From NCBI RefSeq assembly GCF_011297335.1, contig NZ_JAAOTJ010000005.1, positions 1 through 64,000 of the forward strand: 64,000 nucleotides of DNA, given 5' to 3'. This DNA is from Catellatospora methionotrophica (GTDB lineage Bacteria > Actinomycetota > Actinomycetes > Mycobacteriales > Micromonosporaceae). How positions within the stretch are numbered: the stretch's first letter is position 1; each line of letters starts with the position of its first letter. The translations under genes were made by a program, and so were the position numbers. A model generated the notes under the pieces. The model saw only the letters and a list, made by a program, of their open reading frames with translations. It ran no database searches and was not told the origin of the DNA. Shown piece after piece: positions 41 through 52,498 of this stretch.

Positions 41-103
41 CGCAACTCTTAAAGAGTCGCGCTCTCAGGGGGGTGCGGAGGCCGCAAGTCTTAAAGAGTT
101 GCG
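41..103. repeat. Inverted repeat, family 1 copy A
   Basis: The left arm (41-61) and right arm (83-103) are 21 nt each and near-complementary, with the same CGCAACTCTTAAAGA core as three other copies in this window. Each arm is itself almost palindromic. The right arm runs into the first codons of tilS. The inner core is not paired here, unlike in copy B. The gene to the left lies outside the window. Confidence 0.85.
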
Positions 104-1058
104 GCAGGAGGGAGGGCGGCCGGAAGTCGGCCGGGCGGGGGGCGAGTGGGGGCGGCGGTTGGTTTTGGTGGCTTGTTCGGGTGGGGTGGATTCGCTGGCG
201 CTGGCGGCGGGGGCTGCTTTCGTGGCGCGGCGGGAGGGGTGGCGGGCCGGGTTGGTGACCGTCGACCATCAGTTGCAGGAGGGGTCGGCGGGACGGGCTG
301 AGCAGGTCGCGCGGTGGGCTCGGGAGCAGGGGTTCGAGCCGGTCGAGGTCGCGACGGTCGAGGTCGGCGGGCGGGGCGGGCCGGAGGCGGCGGCGCGGGA
401 GGCGCGGTACGCGGCGCTGGCCGAAGCGGCCCGGCGGCTCGGTGCGGCGACGGTCCTGCTCGGACACACCCGCGACGATCAGGCCGAGACGGTGCTGCTG
501 GCGCTGGCACGCGGGGCCGGACCGCGCGGGCTGGCCGGGATGCCCGCGCATCGGGAACACGGCGGAGCCAGGTTCAGCAGGCCACTGCTGGACGTGCCGC
601 GTTCGGCCTGCCGGGCCGCCTGCGCGGCGCAGAACCTGGTGCCGTGGGAGGACCCGCACAACACCGATCCTTCGTACGCCCGGTCGCGGGTGCGGGCCGA
701 CGCGCTCCCCGCGCTGGTCGCCGCGCTCGGCGAGGGGGTGGTGGCCAATCTGGCCCGGTCCGCGGCCCTGCTCGGCGCGGACGCCGACCTGCTCGACGAG
801 CTGGCCGGGGATGCGCTGCGCCGCTGCCGTACGCCCGCCGGGTTGTCCGTCGCGGAGCTGGGCGGGCTGCCGACGGCGCTGCGTACCCGCGTGCTGCACG
901 CGTGGGCCGCGGAGCTGGGCGCGCCCCGCGCGGCGCTGACCCACCGCCACGTCGCGGCCCTGGACGCCCTGGTCACGACCTGGCACGGGCAGGGCCCGAC
1001 GCTGCTGCCGGGCGGGAAGGCAGTCAGCCGCCGGTCAGGTGAGCTGACCGGCGGCTGA
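99..1058 (+). CDS. tilS: tRNA(Ile)-lysidine synthase TilS
   Basis: Adds lysine to C34 of tRNA-Ile(CAU) in an ATP-dependent reaction, which lets that tRNA read AUA. The PP-loop ATPase motif SGGVDS is at residues 27-32, followed by GHTRDDQAETVLL near residue 125, both typical of the family. The C-terminal part is short, as in many actinobacterial TilS proteins. The only plausible start is TTG at 99, which lies inside the right arm of an inverted repeat. The helix that usually precedes the PP-loop strand is not recognisable, so the N-terminus may have been altered by the repeat, or the start may be non-canonical. The stop codon sits in a hairpin shared with the convergent dacB. The family assignment is firm; the start is not. 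Confidence 0.9.
   Translation: MRQEGGRPEVGRAGGEWGRRLVLVACSGGVDSLALAAGAAFVARREGWRAGLVTVDHQLQEGSAGRAEQVARWAREQGFEPVEVATVEVGGRGGPEAAAREARYAALAEAARRLGAATVLLGHTRDDQAETVLLALARGAGPRGLAGMPAHREHGGARFSRPLLDVPRSACRAACAAQNLVPWEDPHNTDPSYARSRVRADALPALVAALGEGVVANLARSAALLGADADLLDELAGDALRRCRTPAGLSVAELGGLPTALRTRVLHAWAAELGAPRAALTHRHVAALDALVTTWHGQGPTLLPGGKAVSRRSGELTGG
1025..1057. terminator. Bidirectional hairpin, tilS/dacB
   Basis: Perfect 14-bp arms (1025-1038 and 1044-1057) with a 5-nt loop, overlapping the end of tilS and 6 nt from the end of dacB. There is no T-run, as is common in GC-rich actinomycetes. Confidence 0.65.
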
Positions 1059-1063
1059 GGAGT

Positions 1064-3404: not shown

Positions 3405-3896
3405 ATGGATTTCGACGTCACGGTTGAGATCCCTAAGGGGCAGCGCAACAAGTACGAGGTCGACCACAAGACCGGGCGGATCCGGCTGGATCGCACCCTT
3501 TTCACCTCCACCCAGTACCCCGCCGACTATGGGTTCATCGAGAACACCCTCGGCGAGGACGGCGACCCGCTCGACGCATTGGTGCTGGTCCAGGAGCCGA
3601 CGTTCCCGGGCTGTCTGATCAAGTGCCGCGCGATCGGCATGTTCCGCATGCGTGACGAGAAGGGCGGCGACGACAAGGTCCTCTGCGTGCCGGCCGACGA
3701 CCCGCGCCTGGAGCACCTGCGTGACATCCATCACGTGGCCGAGTTCGACCGCCTGGAGATTCAGCACTTCTTCGAGGTCTACAAGGACCTGGAGCCCGGC
3801 AAGAGCGTCGAGGGCGCGACCTGGGTCGGCCGCACCGAGGCCGAAGCCGAGATCGTGCGCTCCTACGCGCGTGCCAAGGAGGACGGCGGCCACTGA
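3405..3896 (+). CDS. ppa: Inorganic pyrophosphatase
   Basis: Family I soluble pyrophosphatase that hydrolyses PPi to phosphate and so pulls biosynthetic reactions forward in the cytoplasm. The 163-aa length matches bacterial family members. The signature [11 protein letters not shown] carries the metal-binding aspartates, and the ADYGF motif and the late acidic segment are also present. The ATG at 3405 follows GGGAGTG at ribosome-binding distance. The gene stands alone, divergent from dacB and convergent with eccC. A perfect 31-bp inverted repeat starts 15 nt after its stop. Confidence 0.97.
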
Positions 3897-3911
3897 GGCC
3901 GACCACACGTT

Positions 3912-3974
3912 CGCAACTCTTAAAGACTCGCGGCCTCAGGACTGTCCTGAGGCCGCGAGTCTTTAAGAGTTGCG
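3912..3974. repeat. Inverted repeat, family 1 copy B (perfect 31-bp arms)
   Basis: Arms 3912-3942 and 3944-3974 are perfectly complementary around a single central base. The outer 14 nt of each arm match the other family members; the inner part (GCCTCAGGAC) is private to this copy. It lies between convergent ppa and eccC, so it could end transcription from both sides. Confidence 0.95.
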
Positions 3975-3983
3975 GCAGGGGGC

Positions 3984-4050
3984 GGCCGGAGGCCGCCGGG
4001 CGGGGGCGGCGGGGGCCGGAGGCCGCCGGGCGGCGAGGCCTGGAGGCCGC
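3984..4050. repeat. Short tandem repeat
   Basis: The 20-nt unit GGCCGGAGGCCGCCGGGCGG occurs at 3984-4003 and 4014-4033, with a degenerate third unit after it, in the spacer between inverted-repeat copy B and the end of eccC. No function is apparent. Confidence 0.7.
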
Positions 4051-4097
4051 CGAGACCCCGCGGGTGGGCGGTCTGGCGGGTGGGCTGGTTCAGGCGG

Positions 4098-7000
4098 TTA
4101 GAAGGCGGGGAGTTCGGCGAGTTGGACCAGGCGGGAGCCGCGGCGGGTGATGAGGCGGCCACGGCCGGGGGGCATGCGGTCGTACTTCATGCGGCTGCCG
4201 AACGGTGCGGTGACGATGTTCTCGGCGGAGAGCATGAGGTACGGCGCGTTGGCGGCGGCCAGGCGTGACAGCGCCGTGTCGTAGCTGGACCGGTTGCCGC
4301 CCCAGTTGGCGCCCGCGGCCGCGATCAGGTGCAGGCCGACGTCGCGGGCCTGGAACAGGAAGTCGGCCAGCGGCTCGATCGGGTGGCTGCCGCCGGAGAC
4401 GACCACGTCGTAGTCGTCGACGATGAGGAAGAACTCGCCGCGCCCGGCCAGCCACGGCCGCAGCGGCATGTCCTGCGGGCGGGTGCCGTCGGGCGGCCGC
4501 CGCTCCTCCATCCGGACCCGGATCGCCTCGACGTAGTCGCGGATCTGGGACAGGTTGCTGATGTAGGCGAGCTGGTGTTCGGTGGTCACCGCGCCGAGCA
4601 GGCTGCGCCGCGGGTCGATGATGATCATCTTGGCCTGGTCGGGCGTGTACCGCTGGGTGATCGTCCGGGCGATCTGGCGCAGCAGCGTCGACTTGCCGCT
4701 CTCGCTCTCGCCGAACGCCGTGAGGTGCACGTCGGCGTAGAAGTCGACGGTCGCCGGGGTGAGATCGTCGGCGAGGCCGATCGGCAGCGTCCACTCGCCG
4801 CCGGTCTCCAGCGGCATCCGCTCGTACGCGTACACGCTGGGCAGCATGCGCACCCGGGGCGCGGGCATGCCGTCCCAGTGCTTGGCGATGTGCTGGATCA
4901 GTTCGTCGCGGTTGCCGACGGCGTCGACGTCGGGCCGCAGCGCGAGCGAGAACAGGCCGTCGGGGGTGAGGCCGAAGCCGGGGCGCGACGGCACCTGGGG
5001 CGCGATCTTGCGTACCCGGCAGATGGTGTCGCTCGGGTCGCCCAGCCGCAGCTCGATCTTGCTGCCGAACTGGTCCTGGATGTTGGCCCGGAAGTCGCGC
5101 CAGCGCAGCGAGGTCGCCACGACGTGCACGCCGTACGCCAGACCGCGGGTCGCGAAGTCCGTGATGACCGGGTCCAGGTCCTCGTAGCTCTCCTTCAGCG
5201 TGCTCCAGCCGTCCACGACCAGGAACACGTCGCCGTACGGGTCGTCGGTGAACCGTCCCGCCGCGCGCAGCCGCCGGTAGGCGGCCATCGACTCGATGCC
5301 CTGCTCGGCGAAGCGGGTCTCGCGCATGTTGAGCAGCTGCGCGACCTCGCTGACGGTGCGCCGGACCATCAGCGCGTCCTGGCGTCCGGCGACGCCGCCG
5401 ACGTGCGGCAGTTCGCGCAGCGCGCCGAGCGAGCCGCCACCGAAGTCCAGGCAGTAGACCTGGGCCTCCTGCGGCGTATGGGTCAGCGCCAGGCCGGTGA
5501 TCAGCGTGCGCAGCAGCGTCGACTTGCCGCTCTGGCCGCCGCCCGCGATCGCCACGTGCCCGGCCGCGCCGTCGCCCAGCCGCAGCCATTGCAGGTCGCG
5601 CAGCTGCTGGGCGGGCTTGTCGACGATGGCGACCGGCACCCGCAGCGCGCCGCGCAGATCCGGGTTGGCGACCGTCAGGCCCCGGCCCTCGACGAGGCCG
5701 AGCTGCCCGAAGGCGAGGTCGAGCGGGTCGGAGACGTCCAGCGGCGGCAGCCACACCTGGTGCGCGGGCGGGCCCTGGCCGACCATGCGCTCGATCATGA
5801 CGTCCATCAGGCTCTCGCCCGGGCGGACATCCCAGTTGACCTCGGGTTCGGCGTTCGCCGGGCGCTGCGGCACCGGCACGAAGTGGTTGCTGAAGTCGTA
5901 GACCAGGTCGCGGCCGTCGACGCGGCGCGCGGCGGTCTCCCCGGCCTTCTTGAACGAGCCGGACACGTACGCGCCCTTGAAGCGCTGCAGGGGCTCCGAG
6001 CCGAACTTCAGGTAGCCGTGGCCGGGGGCCTTGGGCAGGTCGTAGGCGTCGCCGACGCCCAGCACGGCCCGCGACTCCATCGCGGAGAAGGTGCGCAGGC
6101 CGATGCGGTACGACAGGTGGGTGTCCAGACCGCGCAGGCGGCCCTCCTCCAGGCGCTGGCTGGCCAGCAGCAGGTGGATGCCGATGGACCGGCCGACCCG
6201 GCCGATCTGGACGAAGATGTCGATGAAGTCGGGGTTGGCGGTCAGCAGCTCGGAGAACTCGTCGCAGACGATGAACAGCGAGGCCAGCGGGGCCAGCGCC
6301 GCGCCGCCCGTACGCGCCTTCTCGTAGTCCTTGAGGTTGGCGAAGTTGCCCGCGGCCCGTAGCAGCTCCTGGCGGCGCAGCACCTCACCGGTGATCGCGT
6401 CGCCCATGCGGTTGACCAGGTGGCTCTCGCCCTCCAGGTTGGTGATGACCGCGGAGGTGTGCGGCAGCCGGTCCAGCGAGGCGAACGTCGCGCCGCCCTT
6501 GAAGTCGACCAGCACGAAGTTGAGCTGCTCGGACGAGTGCGTCGCGGCCAGGCCGAGCACCAGCGTGCGCAGCAGCTCCGACTTGCCGGAGCCGGTCGCG
6601 CCGACGAGTAGGCCGTGCGGTCCCATACCGTCCTGCGCCGACTCCTTGATGTCGAGTTCGACCGGCGAGCCGTCCGGACCGACGCCGAGCGGGACCCGCA
6701 GCATGTTGCGGCTCGCGCGCGGCGACCAGCCGTACGCCACGTCGAAGCGCTCCGGGTCGGGGATGCCGAGCAGGTCGGCCAGGCCCTTCTCCGACGTCAT
6801 CGCGTTGCTGCTGGTGATGGTCGTGGCGGACAGCCGCAGCGGGGCCAGGCGGCGGGCCAGCGCCTCGGCCTCGATCACGCTGAGCCGGTCGGCGACACCC
6901 ACCTCGGCGACCGACGCCGAGGTGACGGTGTGCAGGGCCCGCTCGCGGCCGCGCACCTCCAGGGTCAGCATGCCGCGTTCCAGCAGGCGGGGCGGCGGGG

Positions 7001-8105
7001 AGTCCAGGTCGAGGATGGTCATGCCGGACAGGCCCTCGGGCAGGGCGAGCTGCCCCGACCCGGCCATGTCCGCGCCGTCGAGCACGACGACGACGTGCGG
7101 CGCGCCCTCACCGCCGCCGAAGCGCGGGCGGCCCGCGAGCACCTCGGCGAGCAGGCCCTCCATCTCCTGGGCGGAGGTGGCGAACAGCCGGGCCGGGCCG
7201 AGCGCGTCGACCTTGCTCGGGTGCTGGTGGTGCGGCAGCCACTTGGCCCAGTCCCACGCCTCGCGGCGGTAGGACGAGCCGCAGATCGCGATGATCAGGT
7301 CGTCGGGCGCGTGGAACACGGCGAGCTGCGCGAGCATCGCGCGGGCCAGGCCGTGCACGTCGCCGCCGTCGCGGTGGTCGGCGGCGGAGCCCGCCGTGGC
7401 CGTGTTGCTGCTGTACATGCCGTCGTTGCGCGGCGCGGCGGTGTCCCCGCGCAGGAACACCCGGCCGAAGCCGCGCACGGACAGCGCCACCGGCAGATCG
7501 GGGACCACGGAGTACGCGTCGAGGAAGCGCCGCAGCGCCCCCGCCGTCATCGGCTCCAGCTCCTCCAGCGGGCGCGTCTCGGGCGGCAGCAGGGGGGTGG
7601 CCAGCGACTGCGGGCCGATGCCCACGCGCACGATGCCGAAGTCGGGGTCGTGCGGGCGGCGCTCCCAGAGCCGGAAGCTGTCCACCGTGGACCACAGGCG
7701 CTGCGGGTCGGGGTGGCGGTAGTACAGGCCGGTACGCTGCTGCTGGACGGTCTGGCGGGCGCGGCGGCGCAGCCCGGCCAGGTGGCGCAGGTATTCGCGG
7801 CGGGCGGCCATCATCTCGGCCTTCTTGGGCTGACCGGCCCCGTTCATCAGGCTCGCCGCGATCATGCCGAGGCTGGAGACGCCCATCATGCCGCCGGCCA
7901 CATAGGACATCTTGTCGCCGTTGCCGCGGCCGACCATCATCGCCATGCCCAGGCCGCTGCCCAGCATCGGCAGGATCATCATGGCCTGCTGCCAGCGGCC
8001 ACCCGCGGCCTGCGGAATCTCCGGTGGAGCGTCGATGACGAGCTCTCCGGCCGGGATCTCCGGCGCGGGCCGCCGGGGCGCCCGCTTGACGATCACCGTA
8101 CCCAT
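4098..8105 (-). CDS. eccC: Type VII secretion FtsK/SpoIIIE ATPase EccC
   Basis: The motor ATPase of an ESX/type VII secretion system, membrane-anchored, which recognises and drives WXG100-type substrates. It is a single 1335-aa polypeptide, equivalent to fused EccCa and EccCb. Two hydrophobic segments lie in about residues 40-85. Three FtsK-like ATPase domains follow, with P-loops GATGSGKS (about 501), GGGQSGKS (about 853) and GESESGKS (about 1131). The ATG at 8105 (MGTVIVKR) follows GGGAGGG. The open frame continues upstream through antisense DNA of eccD and mycP, but that extension is not coding. It is divergent from eccD with a 120-nt shared promoter region. No eccB, eccE or WXG100 genes are in the window. 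Confidence 0.95.
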   Translation of the reverse strand: MGTVIVKRAPRRPAPEIPAGELVIDAPPEIPQAAGGRWQQAMMILPMLGSGLGMAMMVGRGNGDKMSYVAGGMMGVSSLGMIAASLMNGAGQPKKAEMMAARREYLRHLAGLRRRARQTVQQQRTGLYYRHPDPQRLWSTVDSFRLWERRPHDPDFGIVRVGIGPQSLATPLLPPETRPLEELEPMTAGALRRFLDAYSVVPDLPVALSVRGFGRVFLRGDTAAPRNDGMYSSNTATAGSAADHRDGGDVHGLARAMLAQLAVFHAPDDLIIAICGSSYRREAWDWAKWLPHHQHPSKVDALGPARLFATSAQEMEGLLAEVLAGRPRFGGGEGAPHVVVVLDGADMAGSGQLALPEGLSGMTILDLDSPPPRLLERGMLTLEVRGRERALHTVTSASVAEVGVADRLSVIEAEALARRLAPLRLSATTITSSNAMTSEKGLADLLGIPDPERFDVAYGWSPRASRNMLRVPLGVGPDGSPVELDIKESAQDGMGPHGLLVGATGSGKSELLRTLVLGLAATHSSEQLNFVLVDFKGGATFASLDRLPHTSAVITNLEGESHLVNRMGDAITGEVLRRQELLRAAGNFANLKDYEKARTGGAALAPLASLFIVCDEFSELLTANPDFIDIFVQIGRVGRSIGIHLLLASQRLEEGRLRGLDTHLSYRIGLRTFSAMESRAVLGVGDAYDLPKAPGHGYLKFGSEPLQRFKGAYVSGSFKKAGETAARRVDGRDLVYDFSNHFVPVPQRPANAEPEVNWDVRPGESLMDVMIERMVGQGPPAHQVWLPPLDVSDPLDLAFGQLGLVEGRGLTVANPDLRGALRVPVAIVDKPAQQLRDLQWLRLGDGAAGHVAIAGGGQSGKSTLLRTLITGLALTHTPQEAQVYCLDFGGGSLGALRELPHVGGVAGRQDALMVRRTVSEVAQLLNMRETRFAEQGIESMAAYRRLRAAGRFTDDPYGDVFLVVDGWSTLKESYEDLDPVITDFATRGLAYGVHVVATSLRWRDFRANIQDQFGSKIELRLGDPSDTICRVRKIAPQVPSRPGFGLTPDGLFSLALRPDVDAVGNRDELIQHIAKHWDGMPAPRVRMLPSVYAYERMPLETGGEWTLPIGLADDLTPATVDFYADVHLTAFGESESGKSTLLRQIARTITQRYTPDQAKMIIIDPRRSLLGAVTTEHQLAYISNLSQIRDYVEAIRVRMEERRPPDGTRPQDMPLRPWLAGRGEFFLIVDDYDVVVSGGSHPIEPLADFLFQARDVGLHLIAAAGANWGGNRSSYDTALSRLAAANAPYLMLSAENIVTAPFGSRMKYDRMPPGRGRLITRRGSRLVQLAELPAF

Positions 8106-8225
8106 TGCGACGCCCTCCCCAAGACGGTCGGCCGCCCGCCATGCTAGGCCATGCCAGGTTTCCGCGCCCGTGCGCGGGAACGGCGCGGGATGACGCACCG
8201 TGGCGCGACGTGGTAGACGTACCGG

Positions 8226-9677
8226 GTGAGCTACCCCGTCGCCACGACCGCGTCCCCCACCGGCCTTGCCCGCATCACGCTGCACACGCCGCAGCGCCGC
8301 GTCGACGTGGCGCTGCCCGAGCAGGTGACGGTGGTGGATCTGCTCCCGGATCTGCTGCGTCACGCCGGGGTCGGGCTCGCCGACGACGGCGAGCAGCACG
8401 GCGGCTGGGTGCTGCGCCGCCCCGACGGCAGCCCGCTGACCGAGACGCAGTCGCTGCAGCAGCAGTCGGTCCGCGACGGTGAGATCCTGCACCTGGTGCC
8501 CGCTCAGGAGCAGTGGCCGGAGCTGGAGTACGACGACGTCGTCGAGGCGATCGCCGAGGGCGCGCGCCGCCGCGGCACCGTGTGGACTCCGGCGGCGACC
8601 CGCATGGCCACCCTGGTCGGTGCGGGCGTGCTGCTCGTGGCGGGCGTGCTGGCCTTGGTGCACGGCGGTCCGCAGTGGACGCCGGGCGGCTACCTCGGCC
8701 TGACCGTCGCGGTGCTGCTGCTGGTCGGCGGCGTGCTGGCGTCGCGGGCGTACGGCGACGGCATCACCGGCAGCGCGCTGGCGGGCTTCGCGCTGCCGTA
8801 CGCGTTCGCGGGCGGCGCGCTGGTGCTCGGTGGGGCCGACGGCGCGGGCGTGCCGGGGCTGCCGTCCTGGCTCGGCGCGGCCCAGCTGCTCGTCGGCTGC
8901 GTGGCGGTGCTGCTGTTCGCGATGCTCGGGGCCGCGGGCGTGGGCCACGGCCTGCGCGTGTTCACCGCCGGCGGCACGGCGGGCCTGCTCGGCGCGCTGA
9001 CCGCGCTGCTGTCCGGGCTCGGTGCGGCCGGTGCGGCCGCGGTCCTGGTCAGCGCCCTGGTCTGCGGTATCGGCCTGGTGCCGGTGCTGGCCATCCGGTT
9101 CGGCAAGGTGCCGGTGCCCTCGGTGGTCCCGCCGCGCCCGGCCGACGGCGAGAACGCGTTCGCGACGGTTCCGGCGAGCCGTGGGGCGGCCACGGACCTG
9201 CCCGACCGTTCCCGCGTGTTCGCGGCCGTGGCGCGCTCGGAGGAGCTGCTCACGGGCATGCTCATCGGATACGCCGTACTGATGGCGGCGGCCGGGCTGA
9301 TCCTGGTCGTCTCGGGCGGCACGGCGGGCCGGGTGCTCGTCGCGGTGTGCGCGACGGCGCTGCTGCTGCGCTCGCGCCTGTTCGTCACGGTGCGCCAGCG
9401 GGTGCCGCTGGTCGTCGCGGGCCTGTTCGGGCACCTGCTGCTGCTGGGCGCGGCGGTGTGGCTGTCCGAGGGCAGCAGCCGCGCGTTCTTCGCGGTCGGC
9501 ACCGTGGTGCTGGCCATGGTCGTCGTGCTCGCCGGGCAGACCTGGTCCCGCAAGCCCCCCTCCCCGTACATCGGCCGCGCGGCGGACCTGTTCGACCTGC
9601 TCGTGGTCGTGTCGGTGGTGCCGGTCGCGGCCTGGGTGCTCGACGTCTACGGACTGATCCAGGGCTGGGCGGCGTAG
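8226..9677 (+). CDS. eccD: Type VII secretion membrane channel component EccD
   Basis: An integral membrane subunit of the ESX translocon. The first 95 or so residues form a ubiquitin-like (YukD-type) cytoplasmic domain. From about residue 130 there is a long series of hydrophobic helices consistent with the 11 TM segments of EccD. The 483-aa length fits the family. The start is GTG at 8226 (MSYPVATT). It is divergent from eccC and 76 nt upstream of mycP, which probably shares its transcript. In known ESX systems EccD dimers form most of the membrane vestibule around EccB and EccC. Confidence 0.93.
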   Translation: MSYPVATTASPTGLARITLHTPQRRVDVALPEQVTVVDLLPDLLRHAGVGLADDGEQHGGWVLRRPDGSPLTETQSLQQQSVRDGEILHLVPAQEQWPELEYDDVVEAIAEGARRRGTVWTPAATRMATLVGAGVLLVAGVLALVHGGPQWTPGGYLGLTVAVLLLVGGVLASRAYGDGITGSALAGFALPYAFAGGALVLGGADGAGVPGLPSWLGAAQLLVGCVAVLLFAMLGAAGVGHGLRVFTAGGTAGLLGALTALLSGLGAAGAAAVLVSALVCGIGLVPVLAIRFGKVPVPSVVPPRPADGENAFATVPASRGAATDLPDRSRVFAAVARSEELLTGMLIGYAVLMAAAGLILVVSGGTAGRVLVAVCATALLLRSRLFVTVRQRVPLVVAGLFGHLLLLGAAVWLSEGSSRAFFAVGTVVLAMVVVLAGQTWSRKPPSPYIGRAADLFDLLVVVSVVPVAAWVLDVYGLIQGWAA

Positions 9678-9753
9678 CCTCCGGCCGCTCGCGTCAGCTT
9701 GACGAGCGGCAATTCTTTCTCCCGGCGGAAAGCCGTGTGAGAATGGCGGAACT

Positions 9754-11052
9754 GTGCCCAGACTCCGGACGACCCGACTGGTCAGCGCCGTGCCGCGGAA
9801 AGATGCGACGGCGCTGCTACGTGTCGTGGGCGCACTGACCCTGGCCGCCGCCGGCAGCCTCGCCGCGACCACACCGCAGGACGTGCCCGCGCTGGACGTG
9901 GTGCAGCAGCGGGCCGCCGCCGAGCAGCGGGCGTCGCGCGGCGGAACCGCCGACGACCAGTGGCAACTGGCCACGCTGAAGGCCGACCGCGCCTGGCAGC
10001 TGGCCGACGGCGCGGGCGTCACCGTCGCCGTGGTCGACTCCGGCGTCGGCGAGCACCCCGACCTGAACGGCCAGGTGCTGAGCGGGCTCGACCTGGTGGA
10101 CAACTCCGGCAACGGCCGCGACGACCCGGTCGGCCACGGCACGACCGTCGCCGCGCTGATCGCGGGCCGGTCCGACGACGGCCGCGGGGTGGTCGGCCTC
10201 GCGCCGAAGGCGAAGATCCTGCCGGTGCGGGTGCTCGACAAGGACAACAAGTACGACGACTCACGGGTGGTCGCCGAGGGAGTCCGCTGGGCGGTCGACC
10301 ACGACGCGAAGGTGATCAACCTGTCGCTGGGCGGCGGCTCCGCCAGCGAGGCGCTGGCCGAGGCCATCGACTACGCGTTCGACAAGGACGTCGTCGTGGT
10401 GGCCTGCGTCGGCAACGTCAGCACCGGCGGCCCGACCGAGATCTGGTATCCGGCCCGCGAACCGGGCGTGCTCGCCGTCACCGCGATCGCCCCCGGCACC
10501 CAGCACCAGCTCTGGCAGGGCTCGCTGACCGGCGCGCAGGCGGTGCTGGCCGCACCCGGCACGGACCTGGTCGGCGCGCGGCCCGGCGGCTACTGGAAGG
10601 TGCAGGGCACGAGCTTCGCCGCCCCGCTGGTCTCAGCGACCGCGGCGCTGGTGCGGTCCCGCTGGCCGGACATGCCCGCCGCCGACGTGGTGCAGCGCCT
10701 GATCAAGACCGCGCAGGACCTCGGCCCGGCCGGGCGCGACGACAGTTTCGGCTACGGGCTGGTCGACCCGGTCGCCGCGCTCACCGCCGAGGTCGCCCCG
10801 GTCCGGGTGAACACGCTGGACACCGCCCCGCGGCCGGGCAAGGCGGGCTTCGGCACCGCACCGCCGCACCCGTCGGGCACACCCACACCGGCCGCGTCGC
10901 CGTCCGCCACCGCCCCTCCCGGGGCACTGCCCCGTCGCGAGCGCGGCGGGCTGAACCTGGCCCTGGTCGGGGTCGTCGCGCTGACCGGTGGAGCGGTCAC
11001 CGCGCTACGCCGCGCGGGCCTGCGTTCGAACAGGCTGCCCTACAGCCGTTGA
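9754..11052 (+). CDS. mycP: Mycosin, subtilisin-like serine protease of type VII secretion
   Basis: An S8-family protease tethered to the outer face of the membrane, needed for stability and function of ESX machines. A hydrophobic N-terminal segment (about residues 23-42) acts as signal or anchor. The catalytic residues are visible: Asp in VVDSGV (about 94), His in GHGTTVAAL (about 128) and Ser in GTSFAAPL (about 286). A Pro/Thr-rich linker is followed by a C-terminal TM helix (LALVGVVALTGGAVTAL) and a short basic tail, the usual mycosin layout. The start is GTG at 9754. The gene is convergent with marP across 65 nt. Confidence 0.94.
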   Translation: MPRLRTTRLVSAVPRKDATALLRVVGALTLAAAGSLAATTPQDVPALDVVQQRAAAEQRASRGGTADDQWQLATLKADRAWQLADGAGVTVAVVDSGVGEHPDLNGQVLSGLDLVDNSGNGRDDPVGHGTTVAALIAGRSDDGRGVVGLAPKAKILPVRVLDKDNKYDDSRVVAEGVRWAVDHDAKVINLSLGGGSASEALAEAIDYAFDKDVVVVACVGNVSTGGPTEIWYPAREPGVLAVTAIAPGTQHQLWQGSLTGAQAVLAAPGTDLVGARPGGYWKVQGTSFAAPLVSATAALVRSRWPDMPAADVVQRLIKTAQDLGPAGRDDSFGYGLVDPVAALTAEVAPVRVNTLDTAPRPGKAGFGTAPPHPSGTPTPAASPSATAPPGALPRRERGGLNLALVGVVALTGGAVTALRRAGLRSNRLPYSR

Positions 11053-11117
11053 CGCCGCCAGCGCATGGTGGCCGCCGAGGGCGCTGTGCGCTGGTCAGCG
11101 GCTCGGCTGCCGGAGGC

Positions 11118-12296
11118 TCAGGCGCACTTGCCGGTGCCGACGGCGCTGGTCCGGGTGCGGCCCATCAGGGCGACCGTGGAGGCCTCGTCGGCGGTGACGG
11201 CGTACCCGACGTTCGGGTCGTCGGCGGCCGCGGCGAAGATCACGCCGAGCACGCTGCCGTCCGAGCCGACCAGCGGGCCGCCCGAGTTTCCGCTGCGTAC
11301 CAGGCCACGGATGGTGTAGACCTCGCGGGTGACGGTGCCGTCCTCGTAGATGTCGGGGCCGGTGATGTCGCCGACGTCGCGCACCCGCGCCGACTGCGCG
11401 TTGTACGGCCCGTCCAGCGGGAAGCCCAGCACGATCGCGTCGGCCCCGGTCTTGGCGGGCGAGTTCGCGAAGCGCATCACGGGGGCGTTCAGCGACGGCA
11501 CATGGATCACGGCGAGGTCGCGCTCCGGGTCGTACACCACGACCTTGCCCGTCAGCCGGGCTCCGTTGAGCTCGATGCGGATCGTCTTCGTGCCCGCCAC
11601 CACGTGCGCGTTGGTCATCACGTGCTCGTCGGCGAAGACGAACCCGGAGCCCTCGATGCGGCGGCTGCAGCTCGGCGCGCTGCCGAGCACCTTGACCACG
11701 GACTTCTTGGCGTTCAGCACGACCTGCGACCCGGCCAGCTTCGGATCCGGCGCGGGCACCTCCTTGACCTGGGTGGGCACCAGGTCGCCGAACACCTCGG
11801 GGAAGCCGTTCGTGTCGACGGTGTCGCGCAGCGCCTCGGTCAGGGTCTTCGCCTCGCCCGGCATCACCGAGTCGATGGCCGACAGCAGGCTGCTGCTGCG
11901 CACCGCCTTGGCCAGCCACGGCTGGGAGGCGTCGCTCAGCGGCACCGCGACCAGCCAGGCCACCAGTGACACGGCGATGACCGAGACCACCGCGCCGCCC
12001 AGGTCGTCGACGGTCTGCCCGGCCCGGTTGGTGATCGCCCGCCGCAGCTTGCCGCCCCACCAGCCGGCCAGCGACTGACCGAGCACGGCCAGGCCGAACA
12101 CCGCGATGAGCGACACCACGAGTTTGACCACCGAGTCGTCGGCGAACCCGGCCAGCAGCGGCCCGAGCTGCAGGCCGATCAGGGCGCCGCCGAAGAACCC
12201 GATGAACGAGAGCATGCCCACCACGAAACCCTGCCGGTAGCCGCTCACCCCGAACAGCAGCAGCAGCAGGATCAGGACACCGTCGACGATCGACAT
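11118..12296 (-). CDS. marP: Membrane-anchored serine protease, MarP-like (CvpA + trypsin-like)
   Basis: The N-terminal third has about four TM helices of the CvpA/colicin V production type (starting SIVDGVLILLLLLFG). It is followed by an extracytoplasmic chymotrypsin-fold protease. The triad residues are His in MTNAHVVAG (about 230), Asp in RDLAVIHV (about 258) and Ser in GNSGGPLVG (about 335). The M. tuberculosis homologue (Rv3671c) protects against acid and oxidative stress, and the next genes here (NUDIX, TlpA-like, nth) follow the same order. It is the last gene of a minus-strand operon, beginning 4 nt after the NUDIX stop. The function in this organism is inferred from the family. Confidence 0.92.
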   Translation of the reverse strand: MSIVDGVLILLLLLFGVSGYRQGFVVGMLSFIGFFGGALIGLQLGPLLAGFADDSVVKLVVSLIAVFGLAVLGQSLAGWWGGKLRRAITNRAGQTVDDLGGAVVSVIAVSLVAWLVAVPLSDASQPWLAKAVRSSSLLSAIDSVMPGEAKTLTEALRDTVDTNGFPEVFGDLVPTQVKEVPAPDPKLAGSQVVLNAKKSVVKVLGSAPSCSRRIEGSGFVFADEHVMTNAHVVAGTKTIRIELNGARLTGKVVVYDPERDLAVIHVPSLNAPVMRFANSPAKTGADAIVLGFPLDGPYNAQSARVRDVGDITGPDIYEDGTVTREVYTIRGLVRSGNSGGPLVGSDGSVLGVIFAAAADDPNVGYAVTADEASTVALMGRTRTSAVGTGKCA

Positions 12297-12300
12297 CGGC

Positions 12301-12987
12301 TCAGCCTACGGAAGGGACATCGGCGGTGCCACTAAGCGTGGCGGGCGGAGTGGGCAGGGCTTCGATCCGATCGGTCGGCCAGGGCCGCGCCCAGCCGCCG
12401 AGGTCCAGCAGGGTGGACAGCACACCGGCGGTGAAGCCCCAGACGAGCATGCCGCGCGACTGGAAGGCCGGGCCGATCCACCCGCTGGAGTGGCGCACCC
12501 GCAGCCGGTGGTCCGGGTCCGCGAGCTCGGCCAGTGGCAGCCGGGCCACGTGGGCCACCTCGCGCGGGTCGTGCGCGCCGACCGGATGCGGCGTGTGCCA
12601 CCACGCCAGCACCGGCGTGACCAGGAAGTCGGTGACCGGGATCCACAGCGTGGGCAGCTGGGCGAGCACGGTGACGCTGGCCGGGTCGAGCCCGACCTCC
12701 TCGCTCGCCTCACGCAGCGCGGTCGCGGTCAGGTCGGCGTCCTCCGGCTCGACCGCGCCGCCGGGGAAGGCGGGCTGGCCCGCGTGGTTACGCATGGTCG
12801 CGGAGCGCTGCATGATCAGCACGTCGGGCCCCTGCTCGCCCTCGGCCAGCAGGATGAGCACCGCGGCCGGGCGACCGCCCTCGTCGGGCGTCGGGATGCG
12901 GGTGAAGTCGACGGCGCGCGCGGCGCGCACCCTGGTCAGCAGCGGCTCGAACCACGCCGGCGGCTGCCGGGTCACCACGTCGCTCAT
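12301..12987 (-). CDS. NUDIX hydrolase, CoA pyrophosphatase-like
   Basis: A 228-aa NUDIX protein. The box GX5EX7REUXEEXGU is intact, starting GGAVEPE near residue 74 and running to REASEEVGL. The sequence just before it (RNHAGQPAFPGG) resembles CoA/NADH pyrophosphatases of the NudL/PCD1 group, so cleavage of CoA or acyl-CoA to phosphopantetheine and ADP is the likely reaction. The ATG at 12987 overlaps the stop of the upstream TlpA-like gene (ATGA), indicating translational coupling. It corresponds in position to Rv3672c. The substrate is inferred, not shown. Confidence 0.88.
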   Translation of the reverse strand: MSDVVTRQPPAWFEPLLTRVRAARAVDFTRIPTPDEGGRPAAVLILLAEGEQGPDVLIMQRSATMRNHAGQPAFPGGAVEPEDADLTATALREASEEVGLDPASVTVLAQLPTLWIPVTDFLVTPVLAWWHTPHPVGAHDPREVAHVARLPLAELADPDHRLRVRHSSGWIGPAFQSRGMLVWGFTAGVLSTLLDLGGWARPWPTDRIEALPTPPATLSGTADVPSVG

Positions 12988-13826
12988 GCCTTCCCCCCAC
13001 CGAAGTGCTGCTGGACGAGTTCGCCGAGGGTCTGGTCGGTCAGCGCGACGTCGCGGTAGACCTTCGCGGTGCCGTCCGGGCCGACGAACAGCGTGATCGG
13101 CAGGACGTTCTCGCCCACGGCGGCCTTGAGCGCGCCGGACCGGTCGTACACGCTCGGCAGGCTGACCTTCAGCTCGTCGGCGAGCCAGGCGGCGGCGTCG
13201 CGGCTGTCCTCGGTGACCACGCCGAGCACCGGCACCCGGCCGCCGTCGGCCAAGCGCTGGAACGCGGGCAGCTCCTTGCGGCACGGCGCGCACCAGGACG
13301 CCCACAGGTTGATGACGAGCGGCCCGCGCAGGTCGGCCAGCCGCACGGGGTCGCCCCCGGCCATGCACTCCAGGGCCAGTTCCGGCAGCCGGATCGTCTT
13401 GGTCTTCGGGCCGCTGGACGCGGCGGCTCCGGACGGGGCGACGGGGGTCGCGCGCAGCGAGGGCAGACTCCCGATCGGGGTCTCCGGGCCGCCGGGAGTC
13501 GGCCCGATCGCGTCCTGCACGCCGGTCGTCGGGGTGCCCGCGGGGCGCGACGGTCCGGGGCTCGACAGCGCAGGGCTGGACGTCGGCGCGGGGGGCGACG
13601 CCGCAGGGGCCGGGGAGCCGCCGCCGGTCAGTGAGGTGCAGGCCTTGAAGGGCTGCGGCACCGGCTCGTTCGGCTCGGTCGCGCCCGGTCCGGTGCATCC
13701 GGCCAGTAGTGCCGCCAGTGCGGCGGCCATGAGCACGCGCTTTCCGGGAAAGTGCGGCCTGCGGGCAGGTGAGGTCCGTCGCGACGGGGTTCGGCGCGTT
13801 GCGCCGGGACGGCCGGGGGCGCTCAT
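12984..13826 (-). CDS. TlpA/ResA-like thioredoxin-fold lipoprotein
   Basis: A 280-aa exported thiol-disulfide oxidoreductase. The N-terminus is basic and Arg-rich, followed by a hydrophobic stretch and the lipobox LLAGC (Cys about 43). A Pro/Ser/Thr-rich linker of about 100 residues follows, then a thioredoxin fold with the active site WCAPC near residue 177 and the cis-Pro region VLPITLF. It probably reduces or isomerises disulfides outside the membrane, for example in cytochrome c maturation. The ATG at 13826 overlaps the nth stop (ATGA), and its own stop overlaps the NUDIX start. It matches the position of Rv3673c. Confidence 0.9.
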
Positions 13827-14563
13827 GCGCCGATCCCGGCGAGAGCCGCGATCTCGGCGGTGCGCGGGCCCTTGAGCAGTTTGACCGCCTCGGCGGGGTC
13901 GACCGGGCCGATGCCGTACGACGGGCACATGCTCGCCAGCGGGCAGGCCCCGCAGGCGGGTTTGCGGGCGTGGCAGACCCGGCGGCCGTGGAAGATCACC
14001 CGGTGCGACAGCATCGTCCAGTCGCGCTTCTCGACCAGCGCCCCGACCGCGTGTTCGATCTTGACCGGGTCGGTCTCGCCGGTCCAGGCCCAGCGGTTGA
14101 CCAGTCGCTGGAAGTGAGTGTCCACGGTGATGCCGGGGACCCCGAAGGCGTTGCCCAGGATCACGTTGGCGGTCTTGCGGCCGATGCCGGGCAACGTCAC
14201 CAGCTGCGCCAGCGTACGCGGCAGTTCGCCGCCGAACCGGTCGACGAGCTGCTGGCCTAGGCCCATCAGGGAGGCCGCCTTGTTCCGGAAGAAGCCGGTC
14301 GGGCGGATCATCTCCTCCAGCGCGACGCGGTCCGCCCCGGCGTAGTCGGCCGCCGTGCGGTACTTCGCGAACAGGGCCGGCGTCGTCAGGTTGACCCGCA
14401 CGTCGGTGCACTGCGCCGACAGGATGGTGGCGACCGCCAGCTCCAGCGGGTCGGTGAAGTCCAGCTCGCAGTGCGCGTCAGGATGGATGACGGCGAGCTC
14501 CCGCGCCATCCGCCTGACCCGGCGCTTGCGCGCCAGCTCGGTCTCGCCCGTCACCGTTACCAC
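13823..14563 (-). CDS. nth: Endonuclease III (DNA glycosylase/AP lyase)
   Basis: A base-excision repair enzyme that removes oxidised pyrimidines. The 246-aa sequence shows [11 protein letters not shown], the helix-hairpin-helix [14 protein letters not shown], the catalytic aspartate context VDTHFQRL, and the C-terminal 4Fe-4S motif C-x6-C-x2-C-x5-C ([17 protein letters not shown]). The chosen start is GTG at 14563. It lies 10 nt after the CapA-like gene and overlaps the TlpA-like gene, so it is embedded in a five-gene operon. It matches the position of Rv3674c. Confidence 0.96.
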
Positions 14564-14573
14564 GGCAGAGAGC

Positions 14574-15824: not shown

Positions 15825-15997
15825 CGCCGGGCACTCTACCCGCCCAGTGCCATGACCGGCACCGGAGCAGGTCGCAGGATTACGGGGGTTGGCGTCCGGT
15901 TGCCACCTGCGTGCGCCTAGACTGACCTCGCGCGGCGTACGTGTAGCGACGAGTTAATCCACGGTATGCCCACGATCCGCGTCGATGGAGGTAGGCG

Positions 15998-16675
15998 ATG
16001 GACGAGGTGCTGGCTCGTAGCGGGATCTTCCAGGGTGTCGACCCGGAGGCCGCCGAGGCGCTTGCTCGTGAGATGGAAACGATCGAGATCCGCAAGGGCG
16101 AGATCGTGTTCAACGAGGGCGAGCCGGGCGACAGCCTCTATATCGTACTCTCCGGCAAGATCAAGTTGGGTCGACGCGCCGCTGACGGCCGGCAGAACCT
16201 CGTCTCCGTGATGGGGCCCTCCGACATGCTCGGCGAGCTGTCCCTGTTCGACCCCGGACCGCGCACCGCCACCGCCACCGCGGTGACCGACGTGCGCCTG
16301 GCGCGGCTGCGCAAGCAGGCCCTGCGCCCGTGGCTGAACAACCGGCCCGAGATCGCCGAGCAGTTGCTGCGCGTGCTGGCCCGCCGCCTGCGCCGCACCA
16401 ACGACGCGCTGGCCGACCTCATCTTCACCGACGTGCCCGGCCGGGTCGCCAAGAACCTGCTGCAGATGGCGGGCCGCTTCGGCACCCGCGACGGCGGCGT
16501 GCTCCGGGTGACCCACGACCTCACCCAGGAGGAGCTGGCGCAGCTCGTCGGCGCCTCCCGCGAGACGGTGAACAAGGCCCTGGCCGACTTCGCCTCGCGC
16601 GGCTGGCTGCGCCTGGACGGTAAGAGCGTCATCATCCTGGACCCGGAGCGCCTGGCCCGCCGCGCGCGCGTCTGA
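15998..16675 (+). CDS. crp: Crp/Fnr-family cAMP receptor protein
   Basis: A 225-aa transcription factor. The cyclic-nucleotide-binding domain covers about residues 1-120, with the phosphate-binding cassette [15 protein letters not shown], whose Glu, Arg and Thr are those of cAMP binders. A dimerisation helix and a winged HTH ([24 protein letters not shown] region) follow. The ATG at 15998 follows GGAGGTAGG. It corresponds to M. tuberculosis Rv3676 in position. A class III cyclase with adenylate-type residues lies 10 kb downstream and could supply its ligand. A TAGACT hexamer at 15918-15923 may be its -10 element. Confidence 0.95.
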
Positions 16676-16688
16676 CCTTCCGCACCAC

Positions 16689-18466: not shown

Positions 18467-18512
18467 TTCTTGCCCCCCACCCCCACCCCCGTCCGGCCTC
18501 CGCCGACCGTCA

Positions 18513-50168: not shown

Positions 50169-52385
50169 GTGGCCCTGGCGCTGTACCGCAAGTACCGGCC
50201 CCGCACCTTCGCTGAGGTGATCGGTCAGGATCATGTCACCGAGCCGCTGATCCAGGCGCTCAAGAGCGGCCGGATCAACCACGCCTACCTGTTCTCCGGG
50301 CCCCGCGGCTGCGGCAAGACGACCAGCGCGCGCATCCTGGCCCGCTCGCTGAACTGCGTCCAGGGCCCGACGCCCGAGCCGTGCGGCGAGTGCGAGTCGT
50401 GCAAGGCGCTGGCCTCCGACGGCGCCGGCTCGATCGACGTGATCGAGATCGACGCGGCCAGCCATGGCGGCGTCGACGACGCCCGCGAGCTGCGTGAACG
50501 CGCGTTCTTCGCGCCCGCGATCAGCCGCTACAAGATCTACATCATCGACGAGGCGCACATGGTCTCGTCGGCGGGCTTCAACGCGCTGCTCAAGCTCGTC
50601 GAGGAGCCGCCGGACTACGTCAAGTTCATCTTCGCCACCACCGAGCCGGAGAAGGTGCTCGGCACCATCCGCTCGCGCACCCACCACTACCCGTTCCGCC
50701 TCATGCCGCCCAACGCACTCCGGCCCTACCTGGAGCACCTCTGCAGGCTCGAAGAGGTCGCGGTGGAGCCGCTGGTGCTGCCACTGGTGGTCCGGGCGGG
50801 CGGCGGTTCGGCCCGCGACAGCCTGTCCGTGCTCGACCAGCTCATCGCGGGCTCGGGCCCGGACGGCGTGACGTACGCCCGCGCGGTGTCGCTGCTCGGG
50901 GTCACCGACAACGCACTGATCGACGAGATGATCGACGCGCTGGCCGCCGGTGACGGCGCGGCCGCGTTCGGAGCCATCGACCGGGTCGCCGAGGCGGGGC
51001 ACGACTCCCGCCGATACGCCAACGACCTGCTGGAGCGGCTGCGCGACCTGATCATCCTGCGCCAGGTGCCCGACGCGGCCGAAAAGGGCCTGCTCGACGT
51101 GCCCGAGGAGCAGCTGGCCCGGATGCAGACACAGGCCGCCCAGCTCGGCCCGGCGACACTGTCCCGCTGCGCCGACATCGTGGCCAACGGCCTGGTGGAG
51201 ATGCGCGGCGCGACCTCGCCCCGGCTGCTGCTGGAGCTGATCGCCGCCCGCATGCTGCTGCCCGCCGCCGACGAGTCGGGCGGTGCCCTGCTCCAGCGGC
51301 TGGAACGGCTGGAGACCGGTTTCGTGCCCGGCGCGGCCACCCGCCCGGCCGCCGACGCCCGCGCCGAGACCAGCCACCCCCAGCGCGACCCCAGTCCTGC
51401 CCAGCGGACCGCCCAGGACGCCCCGAACGCCCACGCCGCCGCTCCTGCCACGGGCCGCGAAGCCGCACGGGCGGCGGCGGCCAGCGCAGCGGCGCACAGC
51501 CAGCCCGCCCGCGCGACCGCCCGGCCTGCCGCGCCAGAGGACTCCGGCTCGGCCCAGCATCCCGGCACCACCCCGCCGGGTGACGACTCGTCCTACGAGG
51601 TCGCCGATCCCTGGGCGGCGGCCGACCCGGCCCGTACGCCCGAACCGGTGCGGCCCGTGGAGCAGTCCCGCGCGCCCGAACCGGCCCGTGCCGCACCCGC
51701 CCGCACGCCCGAGCCCGCCGCGCCGAACGCGCCCCTGGCCGGGGCGGACGACGCGACGGCCGTCCGCCGGTCCTGGGACGAGATCGTGCGCATGGTCGGC
51801 CGCAGCAGCAAGAAGGCTGCGGCGTTCGCCCGCGAGGCAGTGGTGCGCGACATCGACGGCAACACCCTGGTGCTGCTGTTCAAGCACAAGATCCACGCGA
51901 ACGGGGTGGAGAACGACCCCACGCCGCTGATGGACGCCGTGCACCAGGTGCTCGGCGGCAAGTGGCAGCTGCGCTGCGAGGTCGGCGGGGATCCCCGCGC
52001 CGCCGCGCCGCGCGCCGGGGCCACGGCTCCGGCCTCCGCGCCGCCGCGCAGCACCGCCCCGAAGGCGGCCGCCCCCTCCCGCACCCCGGCACCCGCCGGG
52101 GACGACTGGCCCACTCCGGCCCGCGTCGGCGGGGTCGCCCCGGCAGCACCCGCACCCGCGCAGTCCACGGGACGCCGCGCACCGGTTGCCGACGACGGCC
52201 CCCCGCTGGAGGAACCGCCGTACGACCCCGAGTACGACGGCCCCCCGCCGCGCACCATCGAAGGCTTCGACCCCGGTGACGAGCCCACCGACGAGATCGT
52301 CGACGCCGCCACCGCCCGCCAGACCACCGAGCAGGCCGCCGTCGAATCCCTCCGCCGCAGCTTCAACCTCGAAAAACTCGACTAA
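50169..52385 (+). CDS. dnaX: DNA polymerase III subunit gamma/tau
   Basis: The 738-aa clamp-loader ATPase of the replicase. It starts ALYRKYRPRTFAEVIGQDHV, with Walker A GPRGCGKTTSARIL (about 45), the zinc site C-x8-C-x2-C-x2-C (CVQGPTPEPCGECESC) and IIDEAHMVS. Domain III is followed by a long Pro/Ala-rich linker and a C-terminal tau domain (RRSWDEIVRMVGRSSKKAAAF). The start is GTG at 50169 with AGGAGGTG 8 nt upstream. No A-rich frameshift signal is seen, so only tau is expected. recR and ybaB, often its neighbours, lie 7 kb downstream on the other strand. Confidence 0.97.
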   Translation: MALALYRKYRPRTFAEVIGQDHVTEPLIQALKSGRINHAYLFSGPRGCGKTTSARILARSLNCVQGPTPEPCGECESCKALASDGAGSIDVIEIDAASHGGVDDARELRERAFFAPAISRYKIYIIDEAHMVSSAGFNALLKLVEEPPDYVKFIFATTEPEKVLGTIRSRTHHYPFRLMPPNALRPYLEHLCRLEEVAVEPLVLPLVVRAGGGSARDSLSVLDQLIAGSGPDGVTYARAVSLLGVTDNALIDEMIDALAAGDGAAAFGAIDRVAEAGHDSRRYANDLLERLRDLIILRQVPDAAEKGLLDVPEEQLARMQTQAAQLGPATLSRCADIVANGLVEMRGATSPRLLLELIAARMLLPAADESGGALLQRLERLETGFVPGAATRPAADARAETSHPQRDPSPAQRTAQDAPNAHAAAPATGREAARAAAASAAAHSQPARATARPAAPEDSGSAQHPGTTPPGDDSSYEVADPWAAADPARTPEPVRPVEQSRAPEPARAAPARTPEPAAPNAPLAGADDATAVRRSWDEIVRMVGRSSKKAAAFAREAVVRDIDGNTLVLLFKHKIHANGVENDPTPLMDAVHQVLGGKWQLRCEVGGDPRAAAPRAGATAPASAPPRSTAPKAAAPSRTPAPAGDDWPTPARVGGVAPAAPAPAQSTGRRAPVADDGPPLEEPPYDPEYDGPPPRTIEGFDPGDEPTDEIVDAATARQTTEQAAVESLRRSFNLEKLD

Positions 52386-52435
52386 CCCACCCCACCCCAC
52401 CGCCGCCCTCGCGCCGCCGCGCGCCGCCCTCGTGC

Positions 52436-52498
52436 CGCAACTCTTAAAGAGTCGCGGCCACAGGACGCCTCGGAAGGCGCGACTTTTTAAGAGTTGCG
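52436..52498. repeat. Inverted repeat, family 1 copy D
   Basis: 21-nt arms (52436-52456 and 52478-52498) with one mismatch and a 21-nt unpaired core. The arms match copies A-C. It lies between convergent dnaX and oppF. Confidence 0.92.

Follow-up and report, generated by a model that had tools for sequence, protein, structure and literature searches.

Why should one stretch of an actinomycete genome hold four long inverted repeats that share an outer arm, differ in their centres and lie, with one exception, between convergent genes? The stretch, here called the window, comprises the first 64,000 nucleotides (bases 1-64000) of contig 45 of the Catellatospora methionotrophica genome (G000; 8.39 Mb, 56 contigs), and we call the repeats copies A to D of family 1. 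A first-pass annotation of the window had argued that they are not independently evolved terminators and had suggested either a mobile palindrome, akin to repetitive extragenic palindromes (REPs) or miniature inverted-repeat transposable elements (MITEs), or a protein-bound bidirectional boundary element. Spread and a terminator or boundary role are compatible, not alternatives, and our analysis suggests that the elements are probably palindromes resembling REPINs (REP doublets) that spread and were then taken over as bidirectional terminators.

All four repeats lie where the annotation had placed them and share the outer arm, and they are far from being the only copies. A genome-wide scan of G000 with the arm pattern GCAACTCTTAAAGA, allowing at most 2 mismatches, gave 211 forward and 217 reverse matches against 1 and 3 for the reversed pattern used as a control, which excludes chance as the origin of the matches; about 200 copies of family 1 are dispersed over the genome. 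The window and 20 loci of 20 kb contain 29 two-armed elements (26 measure 61 bp, the other 3 measure 60 bp) but not a single lone arm at up to 4 mismatches; nine extra loci and a looser threshold brought the set to 46 elements, 41 of them 61 bp long. Two near-palindromic 20-bp arms, inverted and spaced 41-42 bp, enclose a core of 20-21 bp. Across the 41 copies of 61 bp, arm positions 2-5, 8, 11, 14 and 18 are invariant on both sides, an invariance to be read with the fact that this set was collected by arm likeness; position 15 is G or C (A once), position 17 is either C or T, and the ~11 nucleotides at the centre are near random. Each arm is also a near-palindrome by itself, as the annotation had noted, the two arms of a copy retaining 12-17 of 18 self-pairs. 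The flank consensus, TGCC ahead of GCAAC and GGCA behind GTTGC, is self-complementary.

The annotation had described the cores as private to each copy, which is not wholly so: the core GCCTCAGGACAGTCCTGAGGC, which renders the entire element palindromic, recurs at unlinked loci, also in Catellatospora vulcania and in genome G071. Because it is recurrent and makes a palindrome of the whole element, this core is taken as the ancestral form. A link between arm position 15 and the core is visible: copies with GG have 18 open and 2 paired cores, those with CC 5 open and 8 paired, but the relation of arm self-palindromy to core pairing is no more than a trend (p 0.07). Core pairing as a universal constraint was rejected, the inner five pairs scoring 2.67 against 1.89 by chance in G000, but 1.83 against 1.75 in the loci of C. 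vulcania, Catellatospora coxensis and Catellatospora paridis. Among the window copies, Watson-Crick pairs in the arms (of 20) and core (of 10) number 17 and 4 in A, 20 and 10 in B, 19 and 8 in C, and 19 and 3 in D, so that the inner stem said to pair fully in B and C and not in A and D is as described in three copies and only nearly complete in C, whose hairpin has a 5-nt loop and one A-C mismatch. Folded as RNA with a few flanking bases, A to D reach -36.1, -61.2, -56.4 and -39.5 kcal/mol, and none of 200 shuffles of each is as good. Family-1 arms also occur within about 180 bp of the starts of contigs C3, C7, C9, C12, C13, C17, C18, C26, C33 and C45 (the last being the window's own start) and of the ends of C3, C8, C9 and C11, among the first 100 of 428 places; the assembly breaks at these long palindromes.

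The elements occupy the ends of genes. Copies B, C and D sit between convergent genes, as had been annotated, and copy A, whose left neighbour had been given as unknown, lies in frame inside tilS. Among the 46 elements, 22 are in convergent and 18 in codirectional gaps, none is in a divergent gap, 4 are at locus edges (copy A being scored here) and 2 are inside called genes, compared with 45 convergent, 190 codirectional and 92 divergent background gaps of at least 70 bp in the same loci. The enrichment at convergent gene ends that the annotation had proposed to test is thus evident (Fisher p 1.3e-11), as is the absence from divergent gaps (p 7.8e-6), and 17 of the 18 codirectional copies are no more than 66 bp away from where the gene upstream ends. 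At four places the arm seemingly supplies the stop codon of the neighbouring gene (TAA at L122:15682, L250 and L256; TGA at L124:10708).

Gaps that hold an element tend to lack an ordinary hairpin. With the element masked, and in gaps of at least 30 bp (loop limits 20 and 30; figures are for loops of at most 20), another strong hairpin was found in 4 of 22 convergent gaps with family 1 and in 41 of 50 without either this family or family 2, a palindrome family of other sequence described below (p=4e-7); shuffled sequences gave 0 and 0. A stricter loop limit of 12 missed the hairpin beside C, and the gap test at that limit agrees. The same difference appears in the loci of C. vulcania, C. coxensis and C. 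paridis, with a further hairpin in 3 of 24 convergent gaps with the element and 7 of 13 without (p=0.017), and in codirectional gaps, where the counts are 1 of 16 and 64 of 217 (p=0.047, loop limit 12). When orthologous convergent gaps were paired, relatives without family 1 or 2 had a hairpin in 9 of 10 comparisons against 2 of 10 in G000 (10 comparisons over 7 sites, with G129 or G087 at loop limit 12, one of the relatives' hairpins being a palindrome of a third family). These comparisons show a loss of hairpins at occupied gaps that may be read as functional replacement; alternatively, the elements would insert preferentially at hairpins and destroy them.

That the family spreads follows from copy numbers that swing between congeners and from many empty orthologous sites. 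Of 38 eligible G000 sites, 20 were followed in the relatives G129, G087, G071 and G118, where 20, 20, 18 and 19 were located and synteny across the gap was confirmed at 16, 15, 16 and 13; the numbers of these 20 that carry family 1 are 7, 2, 1 and 0. One near-clean empty site has a gap of 102 bp in G000 against 1 bp in G129, 1 bp in G087 and 7 bp in G071, and a second has 289 against 182 bp. The inserted stretch consists of the 61 bp together with C-rich left and, mostly, G-rich right sequence, referred to below as wings. In the reverse direction, 15 of 21 C. vulcania sites (chosen for exact arms nearest to a gene, with the far side of the gap unchecked) were followed; G129 has family 1 at 12 of the 15, and G000 at 10 of the 13 that could be scored. 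Species differ in the sites at which they gained family 1. None of the 10 relatives has a family-1 element at site B, where each has another hairpin and G000 has none beside its element. At site C, family 1 is found in G129, G087, G125, G100 and G051, with the hairpin kept through paired changes, and in decayed form in G071, and family 2 occupies the same gap in G109, G016, G133 and G118. Site D has family 2 in G129, neither family in G087 and G118, and family 1 with a different core in G071. The mobile palindrome of the first-pass annotation is therefore upheld by some 200 copies, lineage-specific copy number and the empty orthologous sites for which it had proposed a search.

The family is narrowly distributed. 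A search of named genomes for the exact two-arm pattern, which may omit the window's own record, returned 30 stretches, all from Catellatospora (vulcania, coxensis and paridis). A scan with the 20-base arm of 250 genomes of the bacterial family, G000 included, gave any match in 33, and high counts are confined to Catellatospora and one genome of another genus, G009 (596). Forward and reverse counts together are 407 in G000, 316 in G100, 265 in G129, 191 in G109, 132 in G125 and 92 in G087, falling to 17 in G071, 13 in G051, 1 in G133 and 0 in G016 and G118. In 12 loci of G009, 14 sites carry a ~39-bp palindrome, CA[A/T]GATCGSCGCAACTCTTSAAGAGTTGCGSCGATC[A/T]TG with variants, or a doubled form of it, 8 of them convergent, 4 codirectional and 2 that the displayed genes leave unassigned. 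The middle of this palindrome consists of the family-1 arm's 19-base palindrome, and none of the 157 other genomes in a class-wide sample contains that 19-mer when 1 mismatch is allowed. Family 2, with arms GCAGTTTCGGGGAAA[C/G]TGC, a length of 60 bp and an arm spacing of 41 bp, occupies the same gaps in other species. It reaches counts of 613 in G016, 430 in G133, 418 in G118, 206 in G051, 182 in G071, 153 in G100, 145 in G125, 96 in G129, 74 in G087, 68 in G109 and 46 in G000, so that the abundances of the two families are opposed (rho -0.85, p=0.001; 11 genomes, uncorrected for species relatedness), and many genomes of genus g4 contain it in small numbers (at most 14). In G016, the 18 gaps with family 2 comprise 8 convergent, 8 codirectional and 2 divergent ones, a weaker 3′-end bias than that of family 1; among convergent gaps, 4 of the 8 that carry family 2 have another hairpin, as do 13 of the 17 that lack it.

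Further palindromes were seen. A third family of ~75-85 bp has arms like CAAGATCGNCCGACTTGCCNGGCA around a core with GGGCGTATCTTG; its copies were seen at sites 5, 7, 9, 10, 11, 12 and 16 in one or more of G087, G071, G118 and G129, and its outer part resembles that of the G009 element. A possible fourth family has arms CATAGACGCTGGCCTAT ... ATAGGCCAGCGTCTATG (L274 and L280 in G000, L206 in G118), and a hairpin with GATCACCGTTTCGTGTC-type arms stands in one orthologous gap of two genomes (L276 in G000, L281 in G129).

The arms change less than anything around them. In 35 orthologous pairs of 61-bp elements (several sites contributing more than one pair, with 60-bp members and one repeated pair omitted), divergence is 7.8% in the arms (4.2% in the outer and 12.2% in the inner part), 23.3% in the cores, scored in whichever of the two orientations fitted better, and 46% in the 20 bp to the left and right, which were aligned ungapped. 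The possibility that arms are no more conserved than cores across relatives, which the annotation had named as a way to overturn its view, is thus not borne out. Core orientation in these pairs was forward in 15, inverted in 6 and undecided in 14, and because inverted cores appear in orthologous pairs (at the five sites V8, V12, V13, S5 and S9), the core seems to be inverted occasionally without leaving its site. At site C in 6 species, 93.7% of cells are paired and 7 of 29 pairs have changed on both sides, a value that none of 500 shuffles reached.

Intrinsic and Rho-dependent terminators place a GC-rich hairpin at gene ends, with a C-rich, G-poor approach at Rho sites, and family 1 is like them in both respects. 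Toward the element, the wings average C at about 0.5-0.64 and G at about 0.16-0.26 across 60 bp to the left and right (44 G000 elements and 31 from other species' loci), whereas convergent gaps without family 1 have C at 0.40 and G at 0.32 just behind the stop. The Rho-type approach is present as an average over elements, to which copy B is an exception, with 14 C and 14 G in 40 bases of its left wing. In family 2 (11 elements) the wings are G-rich beside the element, with a weaker C excess further out. The wings were dismissed as an extension of the palindrome, since same-element and different-element complementarity by local score were 13.0 and 12.7 in G000 and 12.1 and 11.9 in the second set. 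They resemble a Rho-loading region in composition. We propose that an enzyme acting in trans on the palindromic arms would spread the elements, that landing downstream of stop codons would be tolerated or favoured, and that the long hairpin, readable from either strand, would end transcription (or fix mRNA 3′ ends) for both neighbours; the resident terminator hairpin would then be lost, since the element would serve both genes. Bidirectional Rho-dependent release at the hairpin is the mechanism that we think most likely, and it is also the least certain step; it is favoured because C-rich, G-poor sequence leads into the hairpin from both sides, like a Rho-loading site. What separates family 1 from known terminators is its near-identical arms at ~200 loci, the missing U-tract and its spread as a repeat family.

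The window copies and their neighbours are listed in Table 1. The frame that holds copy A is identified as tilS by Pfam (ATP_bind_3, E=5.6e-40; TilS, E=1.9e-11; query 99-1058), and A encodes ATLKESRSQGGAEAASLKELR directly ahead of the SGGVDS motif. The in-frame insert is also present in tilS of G129, G087, G125 and G100 and missing from G109, G071 and G118. A consensus element would carry an in-frame TAA in its right arm, where all five tilS copies read through; in A, CTTAAAG replaces the family's CTTTAAG and avoids this codon, and the need to avoid it in tilS may be the reason why A pairs poorly. Rickettsia palindromic elements also insert in frame in genes, and copy A is like them as an in-frame palindromic insert in a housekeeping gene, whereas most scored family-1 copies are intergenic. 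Element B matched nothing in the plasmid and phage sequence sets, and a plasmid or phage origin was rejected on that ground. A known RNA family was likewise rejected as the identity of the elements, which went unmatched in an Rfam scan of the window at gathering score; that scan found only a tRNA and a bacterial small signal recognition particle RNA (RF00169, 60136-60227, minus strand). The window has a tRNA-Pro at 36225 and a tRNA-Ser at 60290.

Table 1. Family-1 copies in the window and adjacent features (element coordinates omit the outermost base pair)
Feature	Position	Strand	Remarks
tilS frame (tRNA-Ile-lysidine synthetase)	3-1058	+	open frame; 5′ end cut by contig start
Family-1 element A	42-102 (arms 42-61, 83-102)		inserted in frame in tilS
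Inorganic pyrophosphatase gene	3405-3896	+	left neighbour of B
Family-1 element B	3913-3973		perfect palindrome, 30/30 pairs
G-rich right wing of B	3974-4097		27 G, 11 C within first 40 bases
FtsK/SpoIIIE-family ATPase gene	4098-8105	-	right neighbour of B; start uncertain, longest open reading frame to 10367
Chaplin-domain gene (ChpA-C)	17180-18256	+	left neighbour of C
Ordinary hairpin retained beside C	18420-18467		hairpin scan
Family-1 element C	18513-18573		arm match, RNA fold
Biotin-carboxylase-type acyl-CoA carboxylase subunit	18587-20608	-	right neighbour of C
dnaX gene	50169-52385	+	left neighbour of D
C-rich left wing of D	52386-52436		base composition
Family-1 element D	52437-52497		open core, 3/10 pairs
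Ordinary hairpin retained beside D	52585-52618		hairpin scan
ABC-transporter ATPase gene (oligopeptide type)	52633-53640	-	right neighbour of D

Several observations weigh against a takeover of spreading palindromes as terminators. The loci were chosen because they hold elements and their genes come from a simple in-house caller, so the position counts cannot be taken as unbiased fractions of the genome. The relatives' gaps of 1-7 bp at site 1 hold no hairpin to replace (two comparisons at this site, with gaps below 25 bp in the relatives, were omitted from the paired count), and the gaps of C and D retain an ordinary hairpin beside the element. A consensus terminator scan of 3800-19000 flagged neither B nor C, and there is no U-tract behind the stem, which is mostly followed by GGCAGG-type sequence. 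Between unlinked copies the divergence is 9.9% for arms, 41.6% for cores and 50.7% for flanks; their arms are nearly as alike as orthologous ones, so ongoing homogenisation could mimic constraint. At site C one covariation measure, the count of further pair types, does not exceed chance (219 of 500 shuffles), and template switching in palindromes could yield paired changes without selection. The wing asymmetry is two-sided at codirectional sites too (18 and 5 elements), and wings that are C-rich on both sides even where only one gene reads in may be part of what was inserted rather than a Rho site kept by selection; the far side being C-rich there, a one-sided selected Rho site is not supported on its own as an account of the wings. 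No constant target-site duplication was seen by eye at sites 1, 7, 8, 12, 13 and 15, and family 2 shows both the position bias and the hairpin deficit more weakly.

Could the elements be purely selfish? REPIN-like sequences that land anywhere would be lost where harmful, and the survivors would pile up downstream of genes without any function. Such an account, which we consider unlikely, accommodates the fast change in copy number, the empty sites, the in-frame copy tolerated inside tilS in five species and an architecture of conserved ends and variable spacer typical of REPINs. It gives no reason to expect that ordinary hairpins are lost from gaps with an element, that convergent gaps are preferred over codirectional ones, or that arms are kept while the adjacent flanks turn over.

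Less probable again, to the point of being distinctly doubtful, is the idea that the elements are sites for a sequence-specific protein, such as a nucleoid, insulation or termination factor, the arm being a palindromic operator and the two operators lying some four helical turns apart, with a factor of other specificity in the lineages of family 2. Any case for sequence-specific binding would rest only on the invariant, self-palindromic arms (positions 2-5, 8, 11, 14 and 18, in a set gathered by their likeness). Arms that persist where core pairing has been lost, two families unlike in sequence with the same 41-42 bp arm spacing, and a 19-bp arm palindrome common to another genus in a different context also fit an operator. 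Against a core chromosome function speaks the rarity or absence of the families in close relatives with similar genomes; the shared spacing may just reflect one ancestral design or one mobilising enzyme, and no candidate protein was found. The annotation's bidirectional boundary element thus gains indirect support for its boundary or terminator role, from the position at gene 3′ ends and the hairpin loss.

MITEs and Correia-type elements are short and gene-free, with inverted ends and many copies, and in these respects family 1 is like them. An origin as a MITE of a classical DDE-type insertion sequence with arm-like terminal inverted repeats would also suit the gain at empty sites, and is nonetheless very improbable: the centre is not conserved between copies, as the internal sequence of a MITE would be, lone arms are missing from the window and the 20 loci, and the six sites inspected by eye had no consistent target-site duplication; nor was a parent insertion sequence found, though no genome-wide search for one was made. 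Ordinary terminators that converged or diverged independently, with arms alike by chance or composition, would account for the gene-end position and the hairpin form (a stable GC-rich hairpin at the gene 3′ end, as in intrinsic terminators), and are refuted, in agreement with the annotation, by the same arm at ~200 loci against 1-3 control matches, by the fixed length and by patchy occurrence, rare or absent in close relatives.

If the elements spread as REPIN-like palindromes before becoming terminators, what moved them? The model of the REP-associated tyrosine transposase (RAYT), NF047646, gave no match above its 80-bit cut-off in the 11 genomes of the genus, with three weak matches of 21.7-28.1 bits; in a control search 1 genome of 14 exceeded the cut-off. 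With the wider Y1 model PF01797, 6 of the 11 were above cut-off, namely 5 of 6 genomes rich in family 1 and 1 of 5 poor ones (p=0.08), a loose association with family 1. Among the rich genomes, G000 has three copies, G125, G129 and G109 each have one with an internal stop, and that of G087 is partial; the model found nothing in G100, second-richest in family 1, or in the three genomes with the most family 2 (G016, G118 and G133). Two of the Y1 proteins, one from G000 and one from G125, are IS200/IS605 transposases (110 and 111.6 bits against a cut-off of 55), and both genes adjoin tnpB. No arm of either family, at up to 3 mismatches, was found in the loci of ~3.1-3.4 kb around 8 of the 9 Y1 matches. 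With the model below cut-off in 11 genomes and no arms at 8 of 9 loci, a RAYT is not supported as the mobiliser. An IS200 enzyme is unlikely, given that the two named proteins are of IS200/IS605 type, that G100 lacks Y1 and that arms are missing from these loci; it is possible that the enzyme was lost after amplification or that an IS200 enzyme acts in trans. A passage of PMC6006769 reports that Actinobacteridae carry only Y1 subclass 1.1.

In form, family 1 comes close to REPINs: its inverted palindromic units form a hairpin, are mostly extragenic and exceed 100 copies, and its ends are conserved around a less conserved spacer of set length. REPINs of Pseudomonas and other bacteria, REP doublets associated with a RAYT, are described in PMC3116915 with the same inverted palindromic units, conserved ends and pairable spacer of set length, and also with compensatory changes, hundreds of extragenic copies and several families per genome. 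Unlike them, family 1 has no RAYT above cut-off in 11 genomes, an actinomycete host, C-rich and G-rich wings, and a habit of replacing resident terminator hairpins. No GTAG/GTGG or CGTC tag stands at the foot of the palindrome in the flank consensus, and no transposase gene is flanked by its own REPs at 8 of the 9 Y1 loci. GTAG- and CGTC-tagged REPs, as described in PMC3733652, are found chiefly where neighbouring genes are convergent or unidirectional, on the downstream side of coding regions, as is family 1 without their tags; the main text of that paper makes no mention of actino, Streptomyces, Frankia, Saccharo or Mycobacterium. Because the tag is missing and no RAYT reaches its cut-off, we call the elements REPIN-like and do not file them as REPINs, so that the annotation's REP/MITE-like label stands as regards spread and falls short of formal membership. 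Among open-licence papers found with the terms used, no title or abstract opening concerns the family-1 palindromes.

A bolder reading, which we offer tentatively, is that such RAYT-independent, REPIN-like families act as interchangeable bidirectional terminator cassettes, each made of a C-rich wing, sequence-recognised arms, a hairpin and a G-rich wing. These cassettes would spread through a genome, would displace native terminators and would themselves be replaced in sister lineages by a family of other sequence and near-equal geometry, as if one trans-acting recognition factor had changed its specificity. Should the takeover of spreading palindromes as terminators be correct, the transcription-termination sites of a genome would be rewritable within a genus by a spreading repeat, with old terminators lost at its landing sites, and the question whether REP-like palindromes persist as selfish elements or through host dependence would become testable. 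Actinomycetes would then also harbour REPIN-like elements in high copy number with no RAYT that can be recognised, implying another mobilising enzyme.

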